A stretch of 64,000 nt of DNA from Desulfocurvibacter africanus subsp. africanus DSM 2603 (GTDB taxonomy: Bacteria; Desulfobacterota; Desulfovibrionia; Desulfovibrionales; Desulfovibrionaceae): contig NZ_AULZ01000010.1 of NCBI RefSeq assembly GCF_000422545.1, positions 62,001 to 126,000 on the forward strand. The letters are read 5' to 3'. The notes under the pieces are model-generated. The model ran no database searches. It saw only the letters and a list, made by a program, of their open reading frames with translations, and was not told the origin of the DNA. Shown piece by piece: positions 41,716-48,693 of this stretch; position 1 is the first letter of the stretch; the number at the start of each line of letters is the position of its first letter. The translations under genes and the position numbers were made by a program.

Positions 41716-41829
41716 ATGAAGTCCACGCAGCCCCAGGCGTTCGCCACCCTATCTTTTAGCTTTTGGTATTATTATTGGTTTAGGGAGCAGCCTGTGGTCT
41801 GTAATGGGAGCGGTTTGGTACTCAAGTAG
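41716..41829 (+). CDS. aromatic leader peptide (attenuator sensor)
   Basis: 37 codons, ATG to TAG. Residues 13-22 contain FSFWYYYWF: three Phe, two Trp and three Tyr within nine codons (41755-41781), in a region otherwise without aromatic runs. It ends 24 bases before a strong terminator and 108 bases before the first biosynthetic gene. This is the hallmark of a leader peptide whose translation rate reports charged tRNA-Phe, -Tyr and -Trp. The ribosome site is weak; a TTG at 41707, five bases after GGGAG, is an alternative start. Too short for usual gene calling. Confidence 0.85.
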   Translation: MKSTQPQAFATLSFSFWYYYWFREQPVVCNGSGLVLK

Positions 41830-41893
41830 AAGAAGACGAACACCGAACACCCCAGGGGCCGCAGGCGCAAGCCGGCGGCCCCTGTTTTTTTTT
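41790..41893 (+). promoter_or_regulatory. transcription attenuator before the aromatic operon
   Basis: Terminator: CAGGGGCCGC (41853-41862) pairs with GCGGCCCCTG (41875-41884), closed by GGC-GCAA-GCC and followed by nine T (41885-41893). Antiterminator: GCCTGTGGTC (41790-41799), just after the aromatic codons, pairs with GGCCGCAGGC (41857-41866) using eight Watson-Crick and two G-U pairs, which breaks the terminator stem. A ribosome slowed at the aromatic codons would favour the antiterminator. A possible protecting arm CCAGGC (41733-41738) can pair with 41790-41795. Confidence 0.8.
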
Positions 41894-41937: not shown

Positions 41938-42765
41938 ATGTTAGCCAGCAGCAACAACATCGGGAAAGCCATCCGCCTCGAACGCATTTTCAACCGCAAC
42001 ACCGAGCGCACCATTATCGTGCCCTTGGACCACGGCGTGTCAGTAGGCCCCATCTCCGGACTGGTGGACCTGCGCGAAACCGTTAACCACATCGTCGAGG
42101 GCGGGGCCAACGCAGTGCTCATGCATAAAGGCCTGATCCGCTGCGGCCATCGCGGATCAGGTAAGGACATCGGCCTCATCCTGCACCTCTCCGCCTCCAC
42201 CAGCCTCTCTCCCTATCCCAACGCAAAGACCCTCGTGGGCACAGTGGAAGACGCCATCCGCCTGGGCGCGGACTGCGTGTCCGTGCATGTGAACCTGGGC
42301 GACGAAACCGAGGCGCGTATGCTGTGTGATTTCGGCCAGGTGACATCCATTGCCGCTCAATGGGGCATCCCGGTGCTGGCCATGGTCTACGCCCGCGGCC
42401 CCAAGATCCGGAACCAATATGACAAGGATGTCGTAAAGCACTGCGCCCGTGTAGGCGTCGAGTTGGGTGCCGACGTGGTCAAGGTCTGCTACACCGGCAA
42501 CCCGGACTCCTTCGCCGAAGTCACCGAAGCCTGCTGCGTGCCCGTGGTCATCGCCGGCGGCGAGAAGATGGATAACACCCGCGACATAGTCCAGATGGTC
42601 CACGACTCCGTGCTGGCCGGAGGCCACGGCCTGTCCATCGGGCGCAATATTTTCCAGGCCGAGGACCCGCGCCGATTGGTTGCCACGCTCAAGGGCGTTG
42701 TGCATGAGGACTGGGAAGTGGACGAGGCCATGGATTTCCTGAATAACACCCAAAAGGCGAGCTGA
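41938..42765 (+). CDS. 2-amino-3,7-dideoxy-D-threo-hept-6-ulosonate (ADTH) synthase
   Basis: 275 residues, DhnA/class I aldolase type: [12 protein letters not shown] near the start, [10 protein letters not shown] with the Schiff-base Lys, and VVIAGGEK near the phosphate site. This fold and the following gene are the archaeal-type entry into the shikimate pathway, which replaces DAHP synthase and AroB. It condenses aspartate semialdehyde with a 6-deoxy-hexulose phosphate. First structural gene of the operon, 45 bases after the attenuator T run. Confidence 0.9.
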
Positions 42766-42770
42766 TCTCC

Positions 42771-43754
42771 ATGCAAAAGATCTATTTCCTGGCGGTGCCT
42801 TTCGACAAGAACCTGGTCACCCTGGCTCTGGAGTCGGGGGTGGACGGCTTGATCGTGGAGGACGAGCGCGTGGAGTCCGTGCGTCAGCTCGGGCGCACCG
42901 AAGTCCTGCCGGTCAGCTTGCTTACGACCGTGTGCCTGGAGTCCAAGGCCGACGAGGAGCACGCGGTGTCCTGCCTGCGCTCCGGCGGCAAGGTCGTGCT
43001 GCGCGCCGGCTGGGAGATCATCCCCGTGGAGAACATCCTGGCCCAGGCCGACAAGCTGGGCGTGGAGGTGGCTTCCCTGGATCAGGCCCGCCTGGCCGCC
43101 GGCATCCTGGAGCACGGCGTGGACTGGCTGCTGGTGCTGCCCCAGGCCGCGGCAGAGCTGAAGAGCATCGTGGCCGAGATCAAGCTGTCCCAAGGCGTGT
43201 ACGAGCTGTCGCGAGCCGTGGTCACGGAGGTCCGCCCCGTGGGCCTGGGCCACCGCGTGTGCGTGGACACGCTGTCCATGTTGCGCAAGGGCCAGGGCAT
43301 GCTCGTGGGCAACGGCAGCGCCTTCACCTTCCTGGTGCACGCCGAGACCGAGAACAACCCCTACGTGGCCGCGCGACCCTTCCGGGTCAATGCCGGAGCC
43401 GTGCACGCCTACGCGATCATGCCCGGCGACCGCACCAACTACCTGCAGGAGCTGTCCTCCGGCGACGAAGTGCTCGTGGTCGGCCACGACGGCAGGACTT
43501 CCCTGGCCACCATCGGCCGGGTCAAGGTCGAGGTGCGGCCCATGCTGCTGGTGCGGGCCAGGGTGGAAACGCCCGAGGGCGCGCGCGAGGGCGCAGTGTT
43601 CCTGCAAAACGCCGAGACCATCCGTCTGACGCGGCCCGGCGGCGAGCCCGTGAGCGTGGTCAGTCTGCGCGAAGGCGACGAGATCCTCGTGCGCCTGGAT
43701 ACCGCCGGCCGCCACTTCGGCATGCGCATCAGCGAAGATATCAAGGAAGCTTAA
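42771..43754 (+). CDS. 3-dehydroquinate synthase II
   Basis: 327 residues of the archaeal-type enzyme (family of MJ1249), unlike AroB. Typical stretches are VYELSRAVVTEVRPVGLGHRVCVDTL, GSFT-like NGSAFTFLVHAETENNPYVAARPFRVNAGAVHAY (split near residue 205) and DRTNYLQELSSGDEVLVV. It oxidatively deaminates and cyclises ADTH to 3-dehydroquinate with NAD. It starts 5 bases after the preceding stop. Confidence 0.93.
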   Translation: MQKIYFLAVPFDKNLVTLALESGVDGLIVEDERVESVRQLGRTEVLPVSLLTTVCLESKADEEHAVSCLRSGGKVVLRAGWEIIPVENILAQADKLGVEVASLDQARLAAGILEHGVDWLLVLPQAAAELKSIVAEIKLSQGVYELSRAVVTEVRPVGLGHRVCVDTLSMLRKGQGMLVGNGSAFTFLVHAETENNPYVAARPFRVNAGAVHAYAIMPGDRTNYLQELSSGDEVLVVGHDGRTSLATIGRVKVEVRPMLLVRARVETPEGAREGAVFLQNAETIRLTRPGGEPVSVVSLREGDEILVRLDTAGRHFGMRISEDIKEA

Positions 43755-43778
43755 GGGAAGCCCAAGGAAAGGCCAGCC

Positions 43779-45068
43779 ATGGAAATGCCCGATATGCCCG
43801 ATATGCCGGAGACGCCCGGCAAGGCCGACAAGGCCGGAAAGCCCGCTAAATCCGCAACGAGCGACCAGGCGGAGAAACCTGTCCAGCCCGTGCAGGACCA
43901 AGCGCCAGCGCAGGTTGAGACAGCCGTTCGGACCGAGCAGCCCCAGGGCCAAGGTCAGGGCCAGGGCCAAAGCGCAGACCAGAAGTTCCTGGCCGCCGTG
44001 CGCCGCGAGATCGACTGGGTGGACGAGGAGATCCTGTCTCTGCTCAACAAGCGGGCCAGGATCAGCAAGCGCGTGGGTCGGCTCAAGGCCGGATCGGGCG
44101 ACCCGGTCTTCAAGCCGACGCGTGAGAAGAAACTGCTGGACCGGCTCACGGCCATGAACCCAGGCCCCTTGCCCAACGAGCACCTGCGGGCCATCTACCG
44201 CGAGATCATGTCCTCTTCGCGGTCCCTGCAGCGGCCGCAGAAGATCGTCTACCTCGGCCCCGAGGGCACCTTCTCGCACTTGGCCGCCATGGAATATCTT
44301 GGCCACAGCGTGGAGTACCTGCCCAAGGCCAACTTCGAGGCCGTCTTCGCCGCCGTGTCGCGCGGCGAGGCCGAACTGGGCGTCATCCCCCTGGAAAACT
44401 CCCTGGAAGGCTCCGTGGGCCAGAGCCTGGACCTGTTCCACCGCCACGACGTGTTCATCCAGGCCGAGCTGTTCTGCCGCATCCGCCACGCGCTGCTGTC
44501 CAAAGCCATGCGCATGGAGGACGTGAGCGTGGTCTACTCGCACCCGCAGCCTCTGGCCCAGTGCGCTCAATGGCTGCACGCCAACCTGCCCAACGCCGCG
44601 CTCATCCCCCTGGAGAGCACGGCCGCCGCGGCGCGCACAGTGGTGGACAAACCGGGCGCAGCCGCCGTGGGCCAGAGCCGCCTGGCCGAGATGCACGGCC
44701 TGTCCGTGCTCGCCTCGGGCATCGAGGACGCACCGGACAACTGGACGCGCTTCTGCATCATCGCCGCCTCGCGCCTGGCCGACGGCCAGCCGGACAAGAC
44801 CTCCATCCTGTTCACCACGCCGGACAAGCCCGGCGCATTGGCCGCCGTGCTGGCCACCCTGGCCGAGGCGGGCATCAACATGAGCAAGCTGGAGTCCCGG
44901 CCGCTCAAGAGCGAGAAGTGGAAGTACGTGTTCTTCGCCGATCTGGAGTGCGACCTGTACGCCGAGGAGCACAAGAAGGCTCTGGCCCTGCTGCGCGAGA
45001 AGTGCCACACCCTGCGCCTGCTCGGCAGCTACCCCTCCGGCCCCAAGCTCGACCTGAACAGGGAGTAG
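43779..45068 (+). CDS. pheA: chorismate mutase / prephenate dehydratase with long N-terminal extension
   Basis: 429 residues. The first 65 or so are low-complexity (MPDMPDMPETPG; QGQGQGQGQ), rich in Pro, Lys and Gln. Then comes an AroQ-type chorismate mutase helix domain (FLAAVRREIDWVDEEILSLLNKR), prephenate dehydratase (YLGPEGTFSHLAAMEY; GVIPLENSLEGSVGQSLDLF) and a C-terminal ACT domain (DKPGALAAVLATLAEAGINMSKLESRP) for Phe feedback. It leads chorismate to phenylpyruvate. Confidence 0.95.
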   Translation: MEMPDMPDMPETPGKADKAGKPAKSATSDQAEKPVQPVQDQAPAQVETAVRTEQPQGQGQGQGQSADQKFLAAVRREIDWVDEEILSLLNKRARISKRVGRLKAGSGDPVFKPTREKKLLDRLTAMNPGPLPNEHLRAIYREIMSSSRSLQRPQKIVYLGPEGTFSHLAAMEYLGHSVEYLPKANFEAVFAAVSRGEAELGVIPLENSLEGSVGQSLDLFHRHDVFIQAELFCRIRHALLSKAMRMEDVSVVYSHPQPLAQCAQWLHANLPNAALIPLESTAAAARTVVDKPGAAAVGQSRLAEMHGLSVLASGIEDAPDNWTRFCIIAASRLADGQPDKTSILFTTPDKPGALAAVLATLAEAGINMSKLESRPLKSEKWKYVFFADLECDLYAEEHKKALALLREKCHTLRLLGSYPSGPKLDLNRE

Positions 45069-45070
45069 CC

Positions 45071-46402
45071 ATGCAGCCCGTGACCATTTCCGCCCCTGCC
45101 TCCAAATCCGTATCCCACCGCGCGCTCATCGCGGCGGCCCTGGCTCCCGGCGAGTCTGAGCTTTCCGGCGTGCTGGTCAGCAATGACACCACCGGCGCGA
45201 CCTTGCCCTGCTTGCAGGCCATGGGCGCGACTTTTTCGCGCGACGGCGGCGACGTGCGTGTGCGCGGCATGGCCGACGGGCCGCGCGGCGCAACAGCGGA
45301 CAGCGGCAAACCCGCAATGCTGGACGTGGGCGAGTCCGGCACCACCTGCCGCCTGCTCACGGCCATCGCCGCCGCCGGACGGGGGGCCTTCGAGGTGCGC
45401 GGCGCGGGCCGCATGCACCAGCGGCCCATGGCCGAACTGACCACGGAGCTGCACTCCCAGGGCGTGGACTTCCAGTGGCTGGAGAAGGTCGGCTACCTGC
45501 CCTTCGTCATGCGCACCGAAGGCCTGCGCGGCGGCCCGGCCGCCGTGTCCCTGGAGGAGTCCAGCCAGTACCTCTCGGGCCTGTTGCTTGCCGCGCCCCT
45601 GGCCGCCAAGCCCATGCAGCTGTCCATCTCCGGGGCCAAGGTTGTGTCCTGGCCCTACGTGGCCCTGAGCCTGCAGGTCATGGAGGACTTCGGCATCCCC
45701 TTCACGGTCGAGACGCGTCAGGGCGACGCCTGGCAGCCCACGCCGTGGCGCGAGGTGCGCGCGGCCGAGCCGGGCAAGGTGCGCTTCATCGTGCAGCCCT
45801 CGCGCTATGCGCCGCGCTCCTATGCCGTGGAAGGCGACTGGTCCAACGCCTCCTACTTCCTTGGCGCGGGCGCGGTGTCCCGCGCCGTGGCCATGACCGG
45901 CCTGCGGGCCGACTCGGTGCAGGGCGATCGGGCCATTTTACGGATTTTGCAAAATTTTGGAGCTTCGGTTATATGGGATTCCGCCGGGACGGTCAGCGTT
46001 TCACCCGGCGAACTCCAGGGCATCAACGTCGATATGGGCCAGTGCCCGGATCTGGTGCCCACGGTGGCCATGGTCGCCCTGTTCGCCAAAGGCGAGACGA
46101 CCATCCGCAACGTTGCCCACCTGCGCATCAAGGAATCCGACCGCCTGGAAGCCGTGGCCGGGGCAATCCGCGCCGTTGGCTCGCAGGTGGAGGTACTGCC
46201 GGACGGCCTGCGCATCGCGCCGCGCGCGCTGCCGACGGGCAAGAGCGTGGACTTCGCCACCCACTCCGATCACCGCATGGCCATGAGCTTCACGCTGCTG
46301 CGCCTGGGTGGAGTGGATGTGCGTCTGGATGATCCGCGTTGCGTGGCCAAGTCCTTTCCGGGCTTCTTTGACGAATGGGCCAAAGTGGAGCAAGGAACCT
46401 GA
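45071..46402 (+). CDS. aroA: 3-phosphoshikimate 1-carboxyvinyltransferase (EPSP synthase)
   Basis: 443 residues. It starts at 45071, two bases after pheA, with PASKSVSHRALIAAAL for substrate binding, then LDVGESGTTCRLLTA, and near the end RIKESDRLEAVA and THSDHRMAMSF. It joins PEP to shikimate 3-phosphate. An AT-rich island inside the gene (45933-45980) contains a promoter-like TTGCAA-N17-TATATG. Confidence 0.96.
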   Translation: MQPVTISAPASKSVSHRALIAAALAPGESELSGVLVSNDTTGATLPCLQAMGATFSRDGGDVRVRGMADGPRGATADSGKPAMLDVGESGTTCRLLTAIAAAGRGAFEVRGAGRMHQRPMAELTTELHSQGVDFQWLEKVGYLPFVMRTEGLRGGPAAVSLEESSQYLSGLLLAAPLAAKPMQLSISGAKVVSWPYVALSLQVMEDFGIPFTVETRQGDAWQPTPWREVRAAEPGKVRFIVQPSRYAPRSYAVEGDWSNASYFLGAGAVSRAVAMTGLRADSVQGDRAILRILQNFGASVIWDSAGTVSVSPGELQGINVDMGQCPDLVPTVAMVALFAKGETTIRNVAHLRIKESDRLEAVAGAIRAVGSQVEVLPDGLRIAPRALPTGKSVDFATHSDHRMAMSFTLLRLGGVDVRLDDPRCVAKSFPGFFDEWAKVEQGT

Positions 46403-46404
46403 GC

Positions 46405-47181
46405 ATGACCGGCGAGCGCGCCATAAAGAACGTGGCCATCATCGGCTCCCAGGGGCAGATGGGCAGACTGTTCATGAACCTGTGCATTGAACACGGTCTG
46501 TCCGTGCGCGGGCTGGACAAACCCATGGACAATATGGCCCTGGCGATGGCCATTCAGTCGAGCGAACTCGTTTTGCTGGCTGTGCCCATCCATGCCCTGG
46601 CCGACGTGCTGCTTCAGGTGAAGCCGCACCTCTCGCACCGGAATATCCTGGCCGACTTGTGCTCGGTCAAGGTCGGGCCCGTGGAGCACATGCTCGCGGC
46701 CTGGGATGGCCCGGTGGTGGGCACTCACCCGCTGTTCGGACCACGGCCGCTCGAAGGCGAGCGAGTGGTGGCGATCACGCCCGGCAGGGATGACGCGGCC
46801 CTGGACGCGGTGGAGGATTGGCTGAAGCGTATCGAGCTCAGCACGTTTCGCACGACAGCCCACGAACATGACCGGGCCATGGCCTTCATCCAAGGACTGA
46901 ATTTCGTGACCAACACAGCCTACCTCTCGGCCACCGCGGGCCAACCCGACATCGAGCGGTTCGTCACGCCGTCGTTCCGGCGGCGGCTGGAGTCGGCGCG
47001 CAAGATGCTGACCGAGGATGCCGGGCTGTTCGAGGCCCTGTTCGAGGCCAACCCCTACGCCCAGGAGGCCGTGCGCCTGTTCCGCTCCCACCTGAACGTC
47101 GCCGCTGGCGGCGATGTCTCCCTATTGGCCGAAAGGGCCCAGTGGTGGTGGCGCGACGACAAACAACGGGGAGGGGCGTAA
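46405..47181 (+). CDS. tyrA: prephenate dehydrogenase, C-terminal tail doubling as Trp leader peptide
   Basis: 258 residues. NAD-binding VAIIGSQGQMGRLF; substrate loop GTHPLFGPRPLEGE; AFIQGLNFVTNTAYLS. It leads prephenate to the tyrosine branch. The end reads ERAQWWWRDDKQRGGA: three consecutive TGG codons (47143-47151) ten codons before the stop. The last codons (CGGGGAGGGGCG, 47167-47178) are complementary to the loop-proximal part of the terminator before trpE. The start at 46405 is two bases after the aroA stop; ribosome site GGAACC is weak, suggesting coupling. Confidence 0.92.
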   Translation: MTGERAIKNVAIIGSQGQMGRLFMNLCIEHGLSVRGLDKPMDNMALAMAIQSSELVLLAVPIHALADVLLQVKPHLSHRNILADLCSVKVGPVEHMLAAWDGPVVGTHPLFGPRPLEGERVVAITPGRDDAALDAVEDWLKRIELSTFRTTAHEHDRAMAFIQGLNFVTNTAYLSATAGQPDIERFVTPSFRRRLESARKMLTEDAGLFEALFEANPYAQEAVRLFRSHLNVAAGGDVSLLAERAQWWWRDDKQRGGA

Positions 47182-47247
47182 AGCTTCCGTGGTGACTGGT
47201 GTATCCAAAGGCCGCGTTCCTCCCCGAGGAACGCGGCCTTTTTTATT
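47143..47247 (+). promoter_or_regulatory. trp attenuator embedded in the end of tyrA
   Basis: Terminator: a perfect 16-bp stem 47207-47222 / 47226-47241 with loop CCC, followed by more T (to 47244). Antiterminator: CGGGGAGGGGCG (47167-47178, tyrA codons) pairs with CGTTCCTCCCCG (47215-47226) by ten Watson-Crick and two G-U pairs, which is incompatible with the terminator. A ribosome stalled on the TGG codons at 47143-47151 leaves 47167-47178 free. One that reaches the tyrA stop (47179-47181) covers it and lets the terminator form. Confidence 0.8.
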
Positions 47248-47277
47248 AATAAATTCAATAATAGGAAGGAAAGGCAC

Positions 47278-48693
47278 ATGCAGACCATCACGCTGAGGCA
47301 GACGGGCCGCTGGATGCCCGCCGACGTGCAGACGCCCATCAGCCTCTATCTGGGGCTGGTCGGCGACTCGCCCGGAATTCTTCTCGAAAGCGCCGAGGTG
47401 GACGGCCGCCTTGGGCGCTACAGTCTGATTCTATGGGATTTCCGCCTTATACTCGCCTGTCGTGGAGGCAAGCTGGCCGTATCGGCTCCCGACAAGCGGC
47501 TGGCTGCGCTGACCAAGCTGGACGGCCAGGACTGGGTTCAGGGCGTCAAGGCCGTGGCCAACGCGCTGCGCATCACGCCGCCCGAAGGCTTTGCCGATCT
47601 GCCGCCGGCCACGCGCGGGCTGTACGGCTATTTCGGATATGGTCTGGCCGGGCTTTTCGAGCCCAAGCTCGCACCAGCGGTGCGGCCGGCGGATGCCGAA
47701 GCCTGTCTGGCCCTGCCTGGCCAAGTGGTGCTCTACGACCATCTGCACCACCGCTGCTGCTACCTGAGCCTGGATGCCGAGGCAAAGCCGGAGATGAACA
47801 CCGCGCGCATCCTGCGCAAGCCGGCCATGCCCATTGTGGGCGAGGTCACTTCGCGGTCCGGCAAGGAAGGCTACATGCGCTCGGTGGAGGCGGCCAAGGA
47901 GCTCATCCGCCAGGGCGAATGCATCCAGGTCGTGCTCTCTTCGCGCTTCGAGGCCGACTTCAGCGGCGACCCCTTCGTGCTCTACCGCCGGCTGCGCCAG
48001 GTCAATCCGTCGCCATACATGTTCTACCTGAAGCTGCCCGGCGTAATCCTGGCCGGCTCCTCGCCCGAACTGCTGGTGCGCTGTGACGATGGCGGCCTGG
48101 AGACGCGGCCCATCGCCGGCACCCGGCCGCGCGGAGTGAGCGAGTCCGAGGACGCGGCCTATGCCGTGGACCTGTTGGCCGACCCCAAGGAGCGCGCCGA
48201 ACACGTCATGCTCGTGGACCTGGGCCGCAACGACCTGGGCCGCATCGCCACGCCGGGCAGCGTGAGCGTGCAGAAATTCATGCAGGTCGAGCGTTTCTCC
48301 CATGTCATGCACCTGACCTCCTACGTCGGGGCCAGGCTCAAGCCGGGGCTGGACGCCATGGACGTGCTGGCCTCGGCCTTCCCGGCCGGGACCCTGTCCG
48401 GGGCGCCCAAGGTGCGGGCCATGGAGATCATCGCCGACCTGGAGGAGTTGCCGCGCGGCCCTTATGGCGGGGCCGTGGGCTGGGTCGGCCTGACCGACGG
48501 CCGGGTGGATCTGGACACGGGCATCACCATCCGCAGCCTGTGGGTCAGGGACGGCAAGGTCTGCTACCAGGCCGGCGCTGGCATTGTGTACGATTCCGTA
48601 CCGGAGAAGGAATGGGAGGAAGTCGGCAACAAGTCGCGGGCCATGTCCAAGGTCCTGCGCGGAGAGGAGGCCACGGATGTTTTTGCTGATTGA
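47278..48693 (+). CDS. trpE: anthranilate synthase component I
   Basis: 471 residues. The Trp feedback site LLES is present (ILLESAEVDGRLGRYS). Chorismate-binding motifs include PSPYMFYLKLPG, IAGTRPRG, DLGRNDLGRIA and GTLSGAPKVRAMEI. With TrpG it converts chorismate to anthranilate. GGAAGGAAAGG precedes the ATG, 31 bases after the attenuator terminator. Confidence 0.97.
   Translation: MQTITLRQTGRWMPADVQTPISLYLGLVGDSPGILLESAEVDGRLGRYSLILWDFRLILACRGGKLAVSAPDKRLAALTKLDGQDWVQGVKAVANALRITPPEGFADLPPATRGLYGYFGYGLAGLFEPKLAPAVRPADAEACLALPGQVVLYDHLHHRCCYLSLDAEAKPEMNTARILRKPAMPIVGEVTSRSGKEGYMRSVEAAKELIRQGECIQVVLSSRFEADFSGDPFVLYRRLRQVNPSPYMFYLKLPGVILAGSSPELLVRCDDGGLETRPIAGTRPRGVSESEDAAYAVDLLADPKERAEHVMLVDLGRNDLGRIATPGSVSVQKFMQVERFSHVMHLTSYVGARLKPGLDAMDVLASAFPAGTLSGAPKVRAMEIIADLEELPRGPYGGAVGWVGLTDGRVDLDTGITIRSLWVRDGKVCYQAGAGIVYDSVPEKEWEEVGNKSRAMSKVLRGEEATDVFAD

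Follow-up and report, generated by a model that had tools for sequence, protein, structure and literature searches.

The analyzed window, a stretch of 64,000 nucleotides from Desulfocurvibacter africanus, contains an aro-trp supraoperon with the gene order aroA'-aroB'-pheA-aroA-tyrA-trpE-G-D-C-(F)-B-(A). Pfam domains match TyrA, TrpE, TrpG, TrpD, TrpC, and TrpB, as well as the upstream aroA', aroB', pheA, and aroA. The downstream genes were identified as trpEGDCFBA in a preliminary description of this DNA; domain content upholds E, G, D, C, and B, and F and A carry the names given there. The features of the locus are as follows.

41716..41829, + strand: head leader peptide, MKSTQPQAFATLSFSFWYYYWFREQPVVCNGSGLVLK, upstream of aroA'
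41786..41803, + strand: head antiterminator arm (p = 0.020)
41853..41884, + strand: head intrinsic terminator, followed by a T run
41938..46402, + strand: aroA', aroB', pheA, and aroA, between the head attenuator and tyrA (Pfam DeoC, DHQS, CM_2/PDT/ACT, and EPSP_synthase)
46375..47181, + strand: tyrA, prephenate dehydrogenase (Pfam PDH_N, E 9.5e-15), likely start 46405, last codons as putative leader peptide
47143..47151, + strand: three Trp codons, W257-W259, the proposed stall site (WWW in 71/72 attenuator genomes, CWW in one)
47167..47178, + strand: antiterminator arm (segment 2), CGGGGAGGGGCG, encoding the low-confidence tail of TyrA and forming a 12-bp helix with 47215-47226
47179..47181, + strand: tyrA stop codon, with nine codons separating it from the last TGG
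47207..47241, + strand: hairpin of the intrinsic terminator, made up of segments 3 and 4 (16 pairs, loop of 3), with a T-rich run behind it
47215..47226, + strand: partner of the arm, within the terminator 5' arm and loop
47263-47269, + strand: probable trpE ribosome-binding site, AGGAAGG
47278..48693, + strand: trpE, first gene of the putatively controlled trp operon (Pfam Chorismate_bind and Anth_synt_I_N)

The tyrA open reading frame has its first ATG at 46375 and an in-frame ATG at 46405. The latter is the likelier start, because residues 1-13 are modeled with pLDDT <50. Other candidate leader ORFs near the 96-nt gap between tyrA and trpE have GTG starts only, and none is Trp-rich.

The tyrA gene ends with GCC CAG TGG TGG TGG CGC GAC GAC AAA CAA CGG GGA GGG GCG TAA, and the encoded C-terminus, WWWRDDKQRGGA, reads WWW-RDDKQRGGA-stop. 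The preliminary description had claimed three tandem TGG codons near the tyrA stop, a 16-bp intrinsic terminator between tyrA and trpE, and a 12-nt arm whose pairing excludes this terminator. The first claim is exact (47143-47151, with nine codons separating the last TGG from the stop). The second is confirmed: the hairpin at 47207-47241 is followed by TTTATTAATA, begins 25 nt past the tyrA stop, and is separated from trpE by 36 nt. It is the single terminator-like site in 46000-48000, where 1.2 sites on average are expected by chance; hence, the length of the terminator rather than its presence is telling. The third claim is borne out both by the helix and by alternative folds. The last 12 coding bases of tyrA can pair with a part of the terminator 5' arm and loop, 47167-47178 and 47215-47226 giving an uninterrupted 12-bp helix (by reading, 10 Watson-Crick and two G-U pairs). 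Folded alone, 47164-47228 yields the antiterminator helix (-33.9 kcal/mol), and when the terminator 3' arm is included, the minimum-energy fold is the terminator. Compared with 200 dinucleotide shuffles of the upstream stretch, the native antiterminator has p = 0.010.

The Rfam Trp_leader family (RF00513) had no match in the window and none at E up to 1 in four further loci (L038, L054, L254, and L261); the control E. coli sequence scored 93.1 bits in this search. No Rfam family reached its gathering score anywhere in the window, T-box RNA included. A near-match to RF01730 Termite-leu (24.7 bits, gathering score 51) was rejected as a chance match of the terminator. A search for a 1:2 pause hairpin gave no signal in 44 sequence clusters, as judged by a test that also took in 13 free-standing leaders and also failed on E. 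coli trpL (z -0.85).

The arrangement is widespread in the sulfate-reducing Desulfovibrionales. TyrA was detected in 185/199 genomes of the order, and the junction behind it was read in 110 of these 185, mostly the best-scoring ones. The trpE gene follows tyrA in 92 of the 110 genomes, and in 72 of the 92, belonging to 20 genera and six families, the junction carries both the arm and the terminator. The Trp codons encode WWW in 71 of these 72 genomes, and in the remaining one CWWF stands in place of WWW. Conservation of the Trp codons and of the pairing in relatives, proposed in the preliminary description as a check, is thus present, and the idea was not refuted. The carriers include Desulfomicrobium, Desulfonatronum, Desulfonauticus, Desulfonatronovibrio, Halodesulfovibrio, Nitratidesulfovibrio, Humidesulfovibrio, and Pseudodesulfovibrio. 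Among the 20 genomes with tyrA-trpE and without the attenuator, tyrA abuts or overlaps trpE in 14, and the other six have a spacer without an element detected by the scan. Six genera with trpE behind tyrA lack the attenuator (g4, g7, g11, g13, g19, and g20); Solidesulfovibrio, with overlapping genes and AWW, and Fundidesulfovibrio, with GWW, are without it. At the phylum level, the TyrA profile matched 116/148 genomes. The 25 loci read from outside the order (L198-L222) have no WWW tail, and no trpE was found within 1.3-1.4 kb behind tyrA (22 nt only for L220).

These counts depend on several choices. Five duplicates of other loci (L193-L197) were left out, the junction scan did not include the 25 outgroup loci, and the named and further genome sets overlap, so that 117 positives correspond to 89 unique junctions. 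Positions were counted from the first base of the first TGG (W+1). The arm was sought from W+10 to the terminator and kept if it started between W+11 and W+41, which excluded 2/119 junctions (L021 and L127), left out of the count as having arms outside this range. Two other loci, L133 and L147, look attenuator-like by eye but escaped the scan, and they entered as attenuators in the tree alone.

We consider it very likely that the tyrA-trpE junction holds a trp-type ribosome-mediated transcription attenuator, with the C-terminus of TyrA serving as its leader peptide. Under shortage of charged tRNA-Trp, the ribosome trailing RNA polymerase would stall on W257-W259, with its leading edge ending short of the arm, which begins about 26 nt away from the first Trp codon. 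The free arm would then pair with the terminator's 5' side and keep the hairpin from forming, so that trpE would be transcribed. When tryptophan is plentiful, the ribosome would reach the tyrA stop and cover the arm, so that the terminator would form and transcription would end after tyrA; the genes for phenylalanine and tyrosine would be expressed without those for tryptophan. A stall at WWW may also delay completion of TyrA itself, and Trp shortage would thereby spare chorismate for TrpE. The stalling, its dependence on Trp-tRNA charging, and termination in the cell are what we infer from this architecture.

The geometry of the junction agrees with this mechanism. Across the 44 sequence clusters, the core of the arm begins at W+26.6 (sd 2.1), the tyrA stop lies at W+34.6 (sd 8.2, range W+16 to W+46), and the distance from the arm to the terminator is 43.7 (sd 7.4). 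Thus, the position of the arm is tied to the Trp codons rather than to the stop, which supports the earlier proposal that tyrA acts as the leader without a separate ORF. In lineages with a long TyrA tail, the arm encodes mostly Gly-rich residues, and in lineages with a short tail it lies at or behind the stop. The antiterminator reached p 0.05 against dinucleotide shuffles in 41/44 cluster representatives; this level was missed by 7/119 of all terminator-bearing junctions, the other three representatives among them. The ribosome footprint is about 30 nt, with about 10 nt downstream of the A site, according to passages of PMC4824070. Because of these ~10 protected nucleotides, a ribosome stalled on any of the three Trp codons would halt before the arm, and one at the tyrA stop should cover it. 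The earlier suggestion that the arm sits just beyond the predicted stalled ribosome therefore fits the whole set, with the core at W+26.6 (sd 2.1) here and the arm at W+20-26 in E. coli.

The E. coli trpL leader, measured likewise, closely resembles this layout: its stop lies at W+16, its arm at W+20-26, and its terminator 43 nt past the stop. It shares the tandem Trp codons and an arm that pairs with the terminator's 5' side. However, trpL is a dedicated ORF of 14 codons, whereas the proposed sensor here is the final part of a complete enzyme gene lying within an operon. The junction thus has tandem Trp codons in a translated upstream frame, mutually exclusive antiterminator and terminator helices before the first gene, and an arm just beyond the predicted stalled ribosome; a short dedicated leader with its own start is missing, the frame being that of tyrA. 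A dedicated trp leader occurs instead in genomes of g3 and g12, where trpE is located elsewhere.

The arm and the terminator also co-vary; compensatory changes were among the checks proposed in the preliminary description. A single alignment of all 44 clusters was rejected for this analysis: because the helix register differs from lineage to lineage, fixed columns cannot be compared. Hence, a swap test was used for the whole set, and pair counts were made on 28 aligned sequences from two lineages and their kin (g2, g8, g28, and named relatives), in which the first base of the arm coincides with the last base of the stop codon or lies farther downstream. In the swap test, matched arms and terminators had an energy of -22.35 kcal/mol vs -16.70 kcal/mol for swapped ones, and 0/5000 permutations were as low. 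Just 12 representatives had their native terminator as the top one among all 44, because many arms share one core. In the 28 sequences, antiterminator pairs are formed in 96.1% of cells and terminator pairs in 90.0%, and changes on both sides are seen in five of ten antiterminator pairs. The covariation score was higher than in any of the 500 shuffles or of the slid versions; further pair types were no more numerous than in the shuffles (459/500 as high).

The alternative that survives best, although improbable, is polarity control, in which any ribosome close to RNA polymerase at the end of tyrA blocks the terminator and the Trp codons are irrelevant. A model for it is E. coli rph-pyrE, where a terminator ahead of the second gene is controlled from the final codons of the structural gene preceding it; this system senses UTP via coupling of translation and transcription and has no regulatory codons for one amino acid. 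Attenuation of pyrE through translation of the upstream gene is established, and was reportedly described by Bonekamp in 1984. The likeness to the proposed tyrA switch is that the end of an upstream structural gene governs a terminator; the difference is that tyrA has Trp codons. In favor of polarity control, ribosomes located close to a stop codon repress terminators that lie a few bp farther on, as stated in passages of PMC4824070. However, at the tyrA-trpE junctions of 43/44 cluster representatives, 17-50 nt separate the stop from the start of the terminator (6 nt in L167). Most of these distances exceed what a ribosome at the stop could reach, and the window, with 25 nt, falls into this range. 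Moreover, polarity does not account for an arm locked to the Trp codons rather than to the stop, for a terminator-excluding helix that exists and co-varies, or for free-standing leaders that retain WW(W).

The role of the Trp residues in the protein requires separate consideration. In the AlphaFold2 model of TyrA (mean pLDDT 90.1), the last helix, 248-259, ends in WWW, and residues 261-268 have a mean pLDDT of 56. W258-W259 are kept in most loci without the attenuator, and all three W are kept in g3, g11, and g19, where no attenuator lies behind tyrA. Because WW persists in these loci, the last two W probably matter to the enzyme, with a role in the protein besides regulation, and conservation of Trp alone proves little. 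The first W behaves differently. By genus majority, it is kept in 20/20 attenuator genera (g38 being split, 1 and 1) and lost in 4/6 genera with tyrA-trpE but without the attenuator. The Fisher p of 0.001 for this association is uncorrected for relatedness, and with relatedness counted the association is not significant, five independent pairs on starred branches being too few; 1/200 random pairings held a pair in the opposite direction. In our reading, WWW is a motif of the enzyme that was recruited as a sensor. The view of the tyrA end as a Trp sensor is supported, with the correction that the Trp codons are not purely regulatory.

The same residues bear on another explanation, which we judge very improbable: a fixed partial terminator that lowers trp relative to aro expression, with WWW a protein feature and the arm merely the coding sequence of a Gly-rich tail. 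The persistence of WW without the attenuator and the position of WWW at the close of an ordered helix in the model are in line with it. Yet in the early-stop lineages the arm is non-coding (at most its first base lies in the stop), while its distance from the Trp codons is equal and it co-varies; and the first W is lost, by majority, in 4/6 genera without the attenuator and in 0/20 with it. Least credible of all is expression of trpE from its own promoter under another regulator, the terminator simply ending the aro transcript: intrinsic terminators do often end operons, but just 36 nt separate the terminator from trpE, a search of 46000-48000 for sigma70-like sites on the + strand yielded none, and the conserved terminator-excluding helix would be left unexplained.

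Regulatory proteins of tryptophan genes were searched for as well. The aro-trp supraoperon of Bacillus subtilis also has a switch before trpE within a larger aromatic operon, but there the TRAP protein senses free tryptophan; no TRAP was found in the genome analyzed here, the one searched. A TrpR-family match was obtained in 1/61 genomes, only in the genome of the window and only as a partial match. This match to the Trp_repressor family lies outside the window (G000:C5:175413-175541), scores 28.4 bits at a cut-off of 27, falls within a frame of 736 aa, and is probably not a TrpR.

A further leader is found at the head of the supraoperon. The head leader peptide holds FSFWYYYWF and is rich in Phe, Tyr, and Trp codons. 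Equivalents are present in 17/20 relatives fetched; in G076, G093, and G123 no head leader was seen in the stretch fetched. With the window included, the head attenuator reached p 0.05 in 16/18, and the arm lies 5.3 nt (sd 1.6) past the last aromatic codon of the run. An attenuator before aroA' of Desulfovibrio vulgaris, in a like supraoperon, was predicted by Song et al. (2005, Table 7; PMC1173090), in agreement with the head leader here. That attenuator sits at the operon head, and the passages of the paper on it do not mention the tyrA-trpE junction. The tyrA switch thus appears to be the second of two attenuators in one supraoperon. Given both elements, the supraoperon appears to take two decisions, one for all aromatic amino acids at the head and one for tryptophan alone behind tyrA.

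In some genomes, trpE is detached from tyrA. All 14 genomes read of genus g3, to which Desulfovibrio piger belongs, lacked a detected trpE downstream of tyrA. Among the 21 g3 genomes with a trpE match, 17 were examined, and in all 17 trpE is preceded by a short ORF whose tandem Trp codons encode WWW (14 genomes) or WW (three), as in the example MNVFSNTISNSFKGWWWRIQLRGGDVRA. In these free-standing leaders (L254-L270), the stop lies at W+40-46 and the arm starts at W+18-26, with the arm and terminator at distances like those of the embedded form. A WW leader also precedes the detached trpE of G091 (g12), and G009 (g36) has the embedded form; the leader of G003, for which two readings chose different ORFs, was excluded from the free-standing counts. 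In five loci of the D. piger group (L057, L060, L065, L150, and L155), TyrA ends with WWWKK and a plain terminator follows 4 nt past the stop; no trpE was found behind these tyrA genes.

In the TyrA tree, built by a quick method without bootstrap, the named Desulfovibrio with detached trpE nest among lineages with the embedded form, by which the free-standing leader looks derived. Nucleotide similarity of seven leaders to tyrA was below the shuffled 95% limit for three, level with it for one, and above it for three (L261, L269, and L267), but the best matches of the latter differ. A joint scenario, which we offer tentatively and hold to be possible although somewhat on the doubtful side, is that the enzyme C-terminus has served as a sensor since the ancestor of Desulfovibrionales, under the head attenuator; that the free-standing trp leader of Desulfovibrio proper descends from a 3' end of tyrA that became detached; and that the stall in TyrA diverts chorismate to tryptophan. 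If true, this would be a leader peptide that originated from an enzyme. The natural series of embedded sensor, no sensor, and free-standing leader provides material for studying the origins of leader peptides.

The preliminary description knew of no earlier report of the arrangement, and we found no account of a trp attenuator with the end of tyrA or of another enzyme as its leader in the open-access full text, a scope that leaves most subscription journals outside. The nearest precedent for such use of an upstream structural gene is E. coli rph-pyrE, from which the present case differs by the arm fixed to the Trp codons and the terminator placed 25 nt past the stop in the window. This arrangement runs against the common premise that an attenuator responding to an amino acid requires a leader ORF of its own, a premise by which searches are directed to operon fronts. 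It implies that structural genes inside operons can carry regulatory codons, and similar attenuators may have been overlooked elsewhere.

A separate observation concerns the region between the trp terminator and trpE in 11 Pseudodesulfovibrio-like loci (L097:501-578, L102:502-579, L063, L067, L095, L100, L107, L109, L160, L162, and L184). It holds a conserved ORF of 25 codons with an in-frame TGA at codon 5. The two examples tested had no Pfam or NCBIfam match. The consensus MxxT(TGA)KxxEN[RQ]KK[IV]KGWxVIPRP[YL][HN] suggests that this is possibly a selenocysteine micro-ORF.
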